Source of the DNA: Candidatus Lambdaproteobacteria bacterium RIFOXYD2_FULL_50_16 | GTDB taxonomy: Bacteria; SAR324; XYD2-FULL-50-16 | DNA length: 53,176 nt | Reading direction: 5' to 3' | Assembly: GCA_001783695.1 (NCBI GenBank) | Contig: MFNE01000026.1 | Coordinates: forward strand, 74,948 to 128,123 | Part shown: piece by piece, positions 9,359 to 12,763 of the stretch | Layout: every line of letters starts with the position of its first letter | Numbering within the stretch: the stretch's first letter is position 1 | Program-made: the position numbers and the translations under genes | The notes under the pieces: generated by a model | What the model was told of the DNA's origin: nothing | What the model saw: only the letters and a program-made list of their open reading frames with translations | The model's database searches: none

Positions 9359-10570
9359 ATGAACACAAAGATTGATCTGCACCAAACCGTTTTGGCCCTT
9401 TCAGAGGCATTGGATTTGGTTGGTGTTGACGGGTTGCAACACGGAAAGCGGGTTGCTTACATGATGGTACAAGGTTGCTCGGGACTGCCTCCGATTTTAA
9501 ATGAAACGGAAATGTTTCAGTTAGGGATGTTACATGACATAGGGGTAAGCAGCACCGAAACCCATCAATATTTAGTAAAACACTTAGCTTGGGAAGGGGC
9601 TGAAGAACACTGTGATGTGGGTTTTCACCGGTTAATGCGCTTTGCACCCTTGGTTAAACTCGCGCCTTATGTGTTACACCACCACACCCGCTGGGATGAA
9701 TACCCCAGTTTAGGGGTACCCCCAGACGTCGCCTTAATTGCGAACTGGGTTTTTTTAACAGACCGGGTGGATGTAATGGCCGCAGGGCATTATGCCCATG
9801 ATATATTAGAAAAAAAAGAAGAAATCATTGCCAAGGTCGGTTACTTAAAGGGGCGTTATTTCGCCCCTGAATTGGTGGAGTTATTTTTACGGCTTTCTGG
9901 AAACGACGCCTTTTGGTTGGACCAAGAGCCGCGCCATTTGGTTCAATTTTTACAAAATGAAGTGGCTAGGTTACCTTTGGTCGATATTAGTTACAAAGAA
10001 CTAAAGAGTTTAGCCCAGATTTTTGCAGAGATCGTAGATACCAAAAGCCAGTTCACCCACGAACATTCGCTAGGGGTGGCTAGGTTGGCTAAGTATTTGG
10101 CGGTGCAATTCAAGGTGGATTCGGAAAATATAGAGCGCATTGAAATTGCGGGTCTGCTTCACGACTTGGGAAAGCTACAAACCCCAGACGAAATCTTAGA
10201 TAAACCAGGTCCATTGGACGAAGGGGAGCGCGCTCGGCTGAACCATCACAGCTACGAAACTTTTCAGATCTTGCATAAAATTACCGGCTTAGAGGATGTG
10301 GCTAATTGGGCTGCGTTACACCACGAATCCCCCAATGGTAAAGGATATCCCTTTCAACGCAAAGGGGGGGATTTGCCGATTGAGGCCCGGATTATTGCCG
10401 TTGCCGATGTGTTTCAAGCATTGGTGCAAAATCGTCCTTACCGCGTGGGTTTACCTGACTCAAAGGTTCGCCAGATCATTTTGGATTTTGCTGCGACCGG
10501 CAAATTGGACTCTGAAATTGCGAGTTGGGTTGCTGAACGGGTAGAAATATGTCGGCCTTTGGCGCAGTAG
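9359..10570 (+). CDS. Tandem HD / HD-GYP domain protein (c-di-GMP phosphodiesterase)
   Basis: The C-terminal half (about 215-400) is an HD-GYP domain with LLHDLGK, HHSYET, LHHESPNGKGYP and the RIIAVADVFQAL helix, the metal-binding set of enzymes that hydrolyse c-di-GMP. The N-terminal half (about 10-190) looks like a second, divergent HD domain: MLHDIG, then HHHTRWDEYP in place of GYP, and TDRVD. No receiver or membrane segment is present. ATG at 9359 follows GGAG by four bases. It is divergent from the MltF-like gene and lies upstream of a hemerythrin. With the cyclase at the window start it gives the region both halves of c-di-GMP turnover. Confidence 0.92.
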   Translation: MNTKIDLHQTVLALSEALDLVGVDGLQHGKRVAYMMVQGCSGLPPILNETEMFQLGMLHDIGVSSTETHQYLVKHLAWEGAEEHCDVGFHRLMRFAPLVKLAPYVLHHHTRWDEYPSLGVPPDVALIANWVFLTDRVDVMAAGHYAHDILEKKEEIIAKVGYLKGRYFAPELVELFLRLSGNDAFWLDQEPRHLVQFLQNEVARLPLVDISYKELKSLAQIFAEIVDTKSQFTHEHSLGVARLAKYLAVQFKVDSENIERIEIAGLLHDLGKLQTPDEILDKPGPLDEGERARLNHHSYETFQILHKITGLEDVANWAALHHESPNGKGYPFQRKGGDLPIEARIIAVADVFQALVQNRPYRVGLPDSKVRQIILDFAATGKLDSEIASWVAERVEICRPLAQ

Positions 10571-10670: not shown

Positions 10671-11111
10671 ATGGGCTCTGCTGTTTGGTCTGCTGACCTA
10701 GAAGTGGGCCTGCTTTGGCAGGATCACCAACACAAGCGTTTTTTTGTCATTCGGGACCAGCTAGCCCGTAGCTCAAAGCTAGAAGACAAACGGTCTTTTA
10801 AGTTGGCCCTGTTACAGCTTGAAAATTATGTGCAAGACCATTTCTCCTTAGAAGAAATCTACATGAACCAGTCTAATTACCCTGGTTCAGCAGACCACTT
10901 TAAGGAACACCAAATCTTTATCCATAAACTCAACCGCGCCAAGCGGGAGTTTAAGTTGTACCTAAAGGAATTGGCGGAAGAAGGTTACACCGGAACCAAC
11001 CCTTGGCTGGACCTTAGCCTGGATTTAGAGATTTGGTTTGTAGAGCATATCAACGGGACGGATCGCAGGTTGGCCAATTGGATTATAAGTCATCCAGTAC
11101 AGCCCACCTAG
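10671..11111 (+). CDS. Bacteriohemerythrin (second copy)
   Basis: A 146-residue hemerythrin-fold protein, divergent from the copy at 4280. Ligand motifs: WQDHQHKRFF, HFSLEEIYM, HFKEHQIF and WFVEHINGTDRRL, giving the expected His and Glu/Asp ligands for a di-iron site. The ATG has a strong GGAGG six bases upstream. Monocistronic: the ODP-linked kinase ends 12 bases downstream on the other strand. Probably an O2-binding protein for sensing or delivery near the inner membrane; which partner it serves is not evident. The internal region after the fourth helix start is a little longer than usual. Confidence 0.92.
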   Translation: MGSAVWSADLEVGLLWQDHQHKRFFVIRDQLARSSKLEDKRSFKLALLQLENYVQDHFSLEEIYMNQSNYPGSADHFKEHQIFIHKLNRAKREFKLYLKELAEEGYTGTNPWLDLSLDLEIWFVEHINGTDRRLANWIISHPVQPT

Positions 11112-11123
11112 TTTTGGCCGTGT

Positions 11124-12026
11124 TTATTGGGGCAGTTCAATAATAAAACAACTGCCTTGGCCCTCGATAGAAGTGACCCTAAATTTTCCTCCCATCAATT
11201 GGCAAAGCTCTTGAGTCAGGAGCAGACCCAGTCCGCAGCCCTTTTCGGCTTGGGTTCCTGGTTGCGATAAAAAGGGTCCATTCGACAAGAGTTCAGCAAT
11301 CCGTGGTTCACTCATCCCCACCCCCTGATCGGTCACCGATAACCGCACCCAGGCCTCTACTAATTCGCCATCCACCGTGATTCGGCTTGCTGGCGGAGAA
11401 AATTTGATTGCGTTGGAGATGAGATTACGAATAATCGTTTGCAACATATTCAAATCTGTGGTGACTTCCAACCCTTGCGGAACCAGGTTGACCAATTCGA
11501 CCCCTTTTTTACGGGCTAGTTCGTCGTAAAGATAGACCTGTTCTTTAAAAATCGTATTTAGTTTTAATCTATTAGGCTGTGGTTTGAGCTTTTTATTTTG
11601 GGTGCGGGTCCATTCTAAGAGATTGTCGATAAGCTCCATAGTCCCCACCGAAAGATGGTGGAGCATGTTGATAAAATCTTTGCGCTGGGTCTCGTCAAAC
11701 TTGTCATAAGACTCGGCCAGCCCTTGGGAAAGCCCCACTAAATTAGCAAAAGGGGCGCGTAAATCGTGAGCCATGATCTGTAATAACCGTTCGCGGGTTT
11801 TATTAGCCTCAATTAGTTCGGCTTCTAGTTTTACCTTGGCGTCCAGTTCGATTCGTAGGGTTTTCTTGCTGTGGTTTATATCGTAAATCGTTGCGGTCAA
11901 AAGACTGGCTTTGACTTGGCTAAGGTAGGCCAGACAACGCATGTTAAGCGCTTTTTCTGCCAAATTGCGGTTGGCTTCTCTGACCTCGGCTAGATCACGA
12001 GTGCGATTTTTCGAAGTGTCCTTCAT
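11124..12026 (-). CDS. Soluble histidine kinase partnered with an ODP oxygen sensor
   Basis: The 300-residue kinase has no transmembrane segment or recognisable sensor domain. It has an N-terminal helical/coiled region (about 1-85), HisKA with phospho-His in MAHDLRAPF, and HATPase (about 185-300) with NLISNAIKF, DQGVGM and GCGLGL. Its ATG overlaps the TGA of the upstream ODP gene (ATGA), a strong sign of coupled translation and partnership. The simplest reading is that the di-iron protein supplies the O2 or iron signal that this sensorless kinase lacks. No dedicated response regulator is adjacent. Kinase identity is firm; the sensing link is inferred from gene order. Confidence 0.88.
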   Translation of the reverse strand: MKDTSKNRTRDLAEVREANRNLAEKALNMRCLAYLSQVKASLLTATIYDINHSKKTLRIELDAKVKLEAELIEANKTRERLLQIMAHDLRAPFANLVGLSQGLAESYDKFDETQRKDFINMLHHLSVGTMELIDNLLEWTRTQNKKLKPQPNRLKLNTIFKEQVYLYDELARKKGVELVNLVPQGLEVTTDLNMLQTIIRNLISNAIKFSPPASRITVDGELVEAWVRLSVTDQGVGMSEPRIAELLSNGPFLSQPGTQAEKGCGLGLLLTQELCQLMGGKFRVTSIEGQGSCFIIELPQ

Positions 12027-12763
12027 GGGTGATGGAGGTCAATCCCGCAGGGGAGTTTTCTTAAGTGCTCCATAGCCTGTCCAATGTAGTCACCCTCTAA
12101 TATAGAACCATGTTGAGGTAAAATCCGCCTGATGTCCAAGCCTCGAATCCGGTCTAAAAAATCGACTAACACTTTATTAGAGGGGATAATAATCTGGTGC
12201 CAACGATTCATAGATTCAAAGACATGCTCCGTGGCAAATAAAGACCAATGGTCTGACAATCCCCCAAAAAGGTCGGAGGTAAACAGGCTTTTGGTTTCGT
12301 GATCGTAGGTGATAATGCCAAAAGGCGAATGGAGGTATGGGGTATGGAAAAATTCTAAGACCCGCCCGCTTTTGAGTTTTAATTGGTAGTGGTTTTTGTC
12401 CACCTCAAAAAATTTAGAATGCACCCCATAATGTTGAATCAATCGGGTTTGACTAGAGTGGTTTATCAGTAACAAGTCAGGTCGCCCAATCAAATCCTCA
12501 ACCACTGCCACGTTGCCACAAACATCGGGGTCTTGATGGCTTAAAACTAGGTGACTGATCTCCTCTGGGTTGACTACGTCGATCACCTTGCGCATTACCA
12601 CCGCAAAATGTGGGATCGAGCCTGGATCAAATAGGATCACATCCTCATCATCGAGTAAAAGATAAGGGTTGCAATGGAGGTCAGCTTCCCGATCATAAAA
12701 TCCTACCCAATAAATGTCGCGCAAGATAGCAATCGCATTTTCGTAATCTGGAGATCGGCCCAC
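12023..12763 (-). CDS. ODP-type oxygen-binding di-iron protein (metallo-beta-lactamase fold)
   Basis: A 246-residue stand-alone flavodiiron-like lactamase domain without the flavodoxin half. The metal motif reads SHQDPDV: compared with HxExDH of flavodiiron enzymes, the Glu is Asp and the last His is Val. Other ligands are visible as His in TPYLHSPF, Asp in FTSDLFGG and His in LPQHG. This matches the oxygen-binding di-iron protein (ODP) group known from Treponema chemotaxis, which binds O2 rather than reducing it. The start is GTG at 12763 with AGG seven bases upstream. The stop overlaps the histidine kinase start, so the pair probably forms an O2/iron-sensing system. Confidence 0.85.
   Translation of the reverse strand: MGRSPDYENAIAILRDIYWVGFYDREADLHCNPYLLLDDEDVILFDPGSIPHFAVVMRKVIDVVNPEEISHLVLSHQDPDVCGNVAVVEDLIGRPDLLLINHSSQTRLIQHYGVHSKFFEVDKNHYQLKLKSGRVLEFFHTPYLHSPFGIITYDHETKSLFTSDLFGGLSDHWSLFATEHVFESMNRWHQIIIPSNKVLVDFLDRIRGLDIRRILPQHGSILEGDYIGQAMEHLRKLPCGIDLHHP

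Follow-up and report, generated by a model that had tools for sequence, protein, structure and literature searches.

A di-iron ODP-family protein coupled to a soluble histidine kinase, and a kinase N-terminal segment that may read it

The closest described counterparts of the gene pair presented here are the ODPs (oxygen-binding di-iron proteins) of Treponema denticola and Thermotoga maritima (Muok et al. 2019), each of which serves a cytoplasmic chemoreceptor. In chemotaxis, ODP is reported to contact its cognate receptors directly (PMC6978683) and to affect the ordering of CheA (PMC7666581). We analysed a stretch of 53,176 nucleotides, hereafter the window, from a Candidatus Lambdaproteobacteria genome of 3.14 Mb, in which an ODP gene is followed by a histidine kinase gene (Table 1). 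The window ODP belongs to the same family as the T. denticola and T. maritima proteins and shares their ligand set, with HxDPD and PQHG; in both cases a stand-alone sensor subunit is paired with a partner devoid of a sensor domain. On the other hand, the partner in the window is a HisKA kinase of the ordinary kind, which starts with a segment of 60 residues, whereas that of the described ODPs is a chemoreceptor acting on CheA. Besides, structural alignment gives only 26-28% identity between the window ODP and T. maritima ODP (TmODP), and in the tree the ODPs that have MCP partners are placed elsewhere.

The ODP gene and its coupled kinase

The preliminary description of this locus had taken the upstream gene for an ODP and not a flavodiiron enzyme, and this identity holds. 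The protein scores 191.6 bits against PF19583 of Pfam (gathering cut-off 27.2), its best matches among PDB sequences are TmODP and T. denticola ODP (TdODP), and TmODP entries are the top structure matches of its AlphaFold2 model (pLDDT 92), at TM 0.80-0.84 (6qwo and 6qrq at 0.83-0.84). The ligand set is complete (H76, D78, D80, H145, D164, Q217, H218) and invariant in 16 of 16 aligned ODPs. HQDPDV occupies residues 76-81 and includes the hydrophobic residue that follows HxDPD; aligning the ligands of the 16 ODPs also bore out its earlier interpretation, as Asp takes the place of the flavodiiron Glu and Val that of the final flavodiiron His, and the Gln typical of ODPs is retained ahead of the last His. 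According to a paper on the MBL superfamily (PMC7785958), T. maritima ODP has a Gln at motif 5 instead of the third motif 2 His; this Gln would correspond to Q217 (PQHG) of the window protein.

These features bear on the idea that the ODP is an enzyme (O2/NO reductase-like or an MBL-fold hydrolase) and that the kinase responds to its product or activity instead of its binding state. The window ODP does share its fold (sequence E-values down to 1e-10, structure E-values down to 1e-16) and most ligand positions with the flavodiiron proteins (FDP, ROO, flavorubredoxin), among them NO/O2 reductases. Yet a domain search returned the MBL/ODP domain alone, without the flavodoxin domain that would act as electron supply, and the replacement of Glu and the last His together with the extra Gln, a ligand difference documented in PMC7785958, likewise argues against catalysis. 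We consider an enzymatic role highly improbable.

Table 1. Coordinates of the genes and elements discussed; positions without a locus prefix refer to the window.
Feature	Position	Strand	Details
ODP (oxygen-binding di-iron protein family), metallo-beta-lactamase fold	12023..12763	-	246 aa, GTG start
Soluble histidine kinase, HisKA (His87) and HATPase_c	11124..12026	-	300 aa, ATG start; Pfam, intact H/N/G1/G2 boxes
ATGA overlap of ODP stop and kinase start, translational coupling	12023..12026	-	sequence; 4-nt GTGA overlap in L001
Conserved N-terminal kinase segment, residues 13-62, proposed ODP-reader	11841..11990	-	L001 comparison, profile A3, helix model
Bacteriohemerythrin	10671..11111	+	TIGR02481, 72.9 bits; convergent with the pair, same arrangement in L001
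HD-GYP-like protein	9359-10570	+	convergent to the pair; place kept in L001
Segment plus coiled-coil protein of G077	L079:5374-5781	-	135 aa
ODP-GGDEF-response regulator fusion	L032:4767-6767	-	666 aa
Two tandem ODP genes in the window's own genome, G000:C22	L042:6004-8126		4-nt overlap
ODP-like gene	L066:1102-2079	-	Cys4 insert kept
ODP-like gene	L073:1117-2115	-	Cys4 insert kept
Rubrerythrin-like gene	L085:7209-7724	+	overlaps end of an ODP gene
Cys4-insert ODP genes			L002, L051, L052, L054, L055, L058, L059, L060, L074

According to Pfam, the partner of the window ODP is not an MCP chemoreceptor but a HisKA/HATPase_c kinase, both of whose domains pass their thresholds (HATPase_c 83.2 bits; HisKA 27.2 against a cut-off of 26.9), with boxes HDLR at 87, NLISNA at 201, DQGVG at 233 and GCGLG at 263. 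The ATGA overlap reported before is real, the two open reading frames having these four bases in common, and the two-gene operon contains no response regulator. The kinase had also been called sensorless. This is accurate insofar as neither Pfam nor NCBIfam recognises a sensor domain N-terminal to its core, but what precedes the core is a strongly conserved segment and not a mere linker.

Judged by the ODP, the nearest relative is L001 (Candidatus Lambdaproteobacteria RIFOXYD2; ODP ~77-78% identical), whose gene order matches that of the window: a 7TMR-DISM-like hybrid kinase, ODP, kinase, convergent bacteriohemerythrin and an HD-GYP-like gene. Since this related genus keeps the order and an overlap (here GTGA), the pairing is not due to chance, and the neighbourhood check proposed in the preliminary description thus came out in favour of the pair. 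Among 52 genomes of the host's own phylum, only three other ODPs are close to that of the window (78%, on the L001 contig, 54% and 41% identical). Across five genomes, ODP and partner genes are coupled by overlaps of 4, 4, 19 and 1 nt and, in one case, a gap of 2 nt. Separately, the genome of the window has two tandem ODP genes at L042; they adjoin a gene for a 208-residue, helical-looking protein without a Pfam assignment, and a kinase core is encoded nearby in an open frame of 1243 residues.

A conserved segment beside ODP genes

Between the window and L001 kinases, residues 13-62 are 78% identical (39/50), as opposed to 39-40% for the HisKA and HATPase_c regions. The two cores are mutual best matches among the dozens of kinases in these genomes, and the core has therefore simply diverged faster than the segment. 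The latter takes up about 50-75 N-terminal residues (profile A3, see below, matches residues 12-71). It has no significant match in Pfam, NCBIfam or PDB sequences, that is, no homologous family or solved structure was found in these three collections, and no relatives turned up in the viral contigs searched. In the predicted kinase structure (seven homologue rows, mean pLDDT 72, pTM 0.49), it forms the first part of a single helix, 17-109, that continues into the DHp helix bearing His87; this is a weak prediction because the model has few homologues.

The same segment is found on other proteins. In G050 (ODP 54% identical to that of the window), the downstream gene overlapping the ODP gene encodes a GGDEF protein whose N-terminus matches the window segment at 23 of 50 positions. 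In G077, a member of another phylum (ODP 58% identical), the ODP is followed by a protein that consists of the segment and a coiled coil and is encoded directly ahead of a 1036-residue membrane PAS kinase; this small protein (L079) might serve as an adaptor through which a second sensor kinase comes under the influence of ODP. In G528, the segment starts a PAS-GGDEF protein whose gene overlaps that of an HQDPDV ODP by one base.

A 60-position profile, A3, was built from the window, L001, G050 and G077 segments and scanned against 52 own-phylum genomes, 395 of a second phylum and 277 of one class in the latter, amounting to fewer than 724 distinct genomes because some genomes are in both of the last two sets. 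Five loci matched at E <= 4e-14, every one of them touching an ODP gene, and all else was noise (E >= 0.003). Four of these are training members, with G528 alone out of sample; its match was a genuine prediction, and the neighbour proved to be an ODP. The five A3-linked ODPs form one clade (support 0.999), and pairwise identities of ODPs and segments correlate with r = 0.91 over 10 non-independent pairs. Within the genomes scanned, the segment is exclusive to ODP neighbours and the effector behind it is swapped, a kinase being the direct partner in two of the five pairs. Judged from sequence, this suggests that the segment may be a plug through which ODPs drive various outputs. For the locus itself, an ODP feeding a two-component kinase, as put forward in the preliminary description, is still the most economical reading, but the conserved unit is ODP plus segment, given the orthologs beside segment-bearing GGDEF proteins.

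Alternatively, the segment could be a plain dimerisation or signalling coiled coil that makes no contact with ODP, the two proteins being co-expressed for separate roles, with ODP acting e.g. as an O2 scavenger or iron buffer. The unbroken helix of the model does resemble many signalling helices, and soluble kinases and GGDEF proteins commonly start with a short coiled coil. A generic coiled coil, however, should also occur away from ODPs, whereas A3 matches were ODP-adjacent in every scan, including the predicted one. Besides, conservation of the segment far exceeds that of the kinase core, and its divergence parallels that of ODP. We thus regard a coiled coil of this kind as an unlikely explanation. 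In principle, a separate short protein could also be the real ODP partner.

A second segment type and the four-cysteine ODPs

In the second phylum, many ODPs adjoin class III nucleotidyl cyclases, whose N-terminal segment is of another kind; on Fusobacterial plasmids, ODP overlaps a GGDEF gene, and in Desulfoluna it overlaps a SpoIIE phosphatase gene by ATGA. A profile derived from the cyclases only scored 25.3 bits against the Fusobacterial GGDEF segment (best of 300 shuffles 6.4) and 4.7 bits against the Desulfoluna SpoIIE segment, the latter score being reached by 6 of 300 shuffles and no proof in itself. A second SpoIIE protein, from G306, bridges the cyclase-type and Desulfoluna segments by eye. 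The combined profile, A5, gave 11 matches in the 395 genomes, 11/11 beside an ODP; the G177 match and the SpoIIE protein of G306 had no part in building the profile. In the host's own phylum, it produced one weak 19-residue match (E 0.001).

A single homologous N-terminal segment common to all ODP partners is rejected for now. Aligning the window-type with the cyclase/SpoIIE-type segment by hhalign yielded 9.2, compared with 9.9 ± 1.9 for shuffles, and the cyclase HMM scored 0.0 bits against the window kinase, with 156/300 shuffles as good. Because both comparisons are at shuffle level, A3 and A5 are kept as two separate families.

All A5-type ODPs carry a four-cysteine insert, which was not seen in the other ODPs examined with intact ligands. 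This insert (C-x2-C-...-C-...-C) follows after about residue 180 in window ODP numbering, in proteins whose partners are cyclases, Fusobacterial GGDEF proteins or SpoIIE phosphatases and which have HxDPDL in place of HQDPDV/I; it could be an Fe-S or Zn site. The ODP-like proteins of L066 and L073 have lost the di-iron motif (NYDPRL and SADPRL), and the gene immediately downstream of each encodes a soluble kinase of the HisKA type with a short N-terminus. Taking A3 and A5 together, we see about even odds that ODPs make up a general plug-in sensor system, in which each subfamily comes with its own reader segment and this segment is transferable to kinases, to diguanylate or class III nucleotidyl cyclases and to PP2C/SpoIIE phosphatases, and that the Cys4 subfamily may add a second metal centre, replacing the di-iron site in some members.

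Several further arrangements were recorded along the way. One Fusobacteria isolate has near-identical ODP-GGDEF pairs on three plasmids (CP102406-CP102408; L074-L076), in one of which the GGDEF gene is annotated in two pieces. A natural single-chain fusion of ODP, GGDEF and response regulator is encoded at L032, in a genome of the same family as that of the window, and L046-L049 are further ODP-GGDEF fusions by sequence. Such single chains were dismissed as proof for the A3 segment, as G046 and L046-L049 join ODP and GGDEF via other linkers. The rubrerythrin-like gene at L085 overlaps an ODP gene that itself comes after a class III cyclase gene, and small genes of a similar kind are found beside L054, L056 and L090.

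Proposed mechanism and comparison with known systems

We favour the reading, with a probability of roughly 0.6, that the pair is a two-gene cytosolic split sensor kinase, in which ODP docks on the N-terminal helix of the kinase and tunes it according to its iron/O2 state. ODP would be the sensor subunit, predicted to bind iron at the H/D/D/H/D/Q/H site and, by analogy with the T. denticola and T. maritima proteins, to take up O2 as a stable peroxo adduct. The kinase would be the output subunit, its first ~60 residues serving as ODP receiver in the form of a helical extension continuous with the His87 dimerisation helix. Signalling helices are thought to act by a register change of the helix pair; here, the iron/O2 state of the docked ODP may shift the helical register and thereby alter autophosphorylation or phosphatase activity. 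Like docking itself, O2/Fe occupancy and control of the kinase, we infer this shift and the direction of its effect. In the sister systems, the putative receiver would be joined to GGDEF, PAS-GGDEF or a stand-alone coiled coil; with the same receiver on different outputs, evolution would therefore keep ODP and receiver and swap the output.

A variant of this scheme, overlapping with it and differing solely in the ligand, retains the split kinase but has ODP sense mainly iron (or nitric oxide) and not O2, with the kinase controlling iron or redox stress genes. T. denticola ODP was reported as an Fe(II) and O2 sensor (Muok 2019, as cited in PMC7319448), and bacteriohemerythrin and rubrerythrin-like genes adjoin several ODP loci. 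Sequence does not separate the ligands, though, and hemerythrin-like genes occur elsewhere in the window as well, which is why the adjacent hemerythrin was not counted as evidence of a shared O2 circuit either. We hold the variant to be somewhat unlikely, less so than the alternatives above.

If the split sensor kinase reading is correct, a single O2/iron sensor could be connected, via a transferable segment of ~60 residues, to several outputs based on second messengers or phosphorylation. This would provide a testable rule for predicting O2/iron control of soluble kinases and cyclases that are annotated without a sensor, and represent a means of O2 sensing without haem or PAS domains in anaerobes and microaerophiles.

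Part of this has precedent. Muok 2019, as summarised in the TREND paper (PMC7319448), reported fusions of ODPs as well as operons that combine them with other signalling genes; the idea of ODPs feeding signalling proteins other than chemoreceptors was in print already. The earlier label 'little-described' is hence only partly right, and the kinase pairing may itself stand in Muok 2019. The summary in PMC7319448 names neither such a conserved segment nor its exchange between effectors, and we have not found a conserved, ODP-exclusive reader segment moving between enzyme types described. A further parallel is the PqsE-RhlR system. PqsE, which is among the structural matches of the window ODP model, likewise has the MBL fold and acts through binding to a signalling partner; however, PqsE is no ODP, and its partner is a transcription factor, in contrast to the kinase of the present pair.
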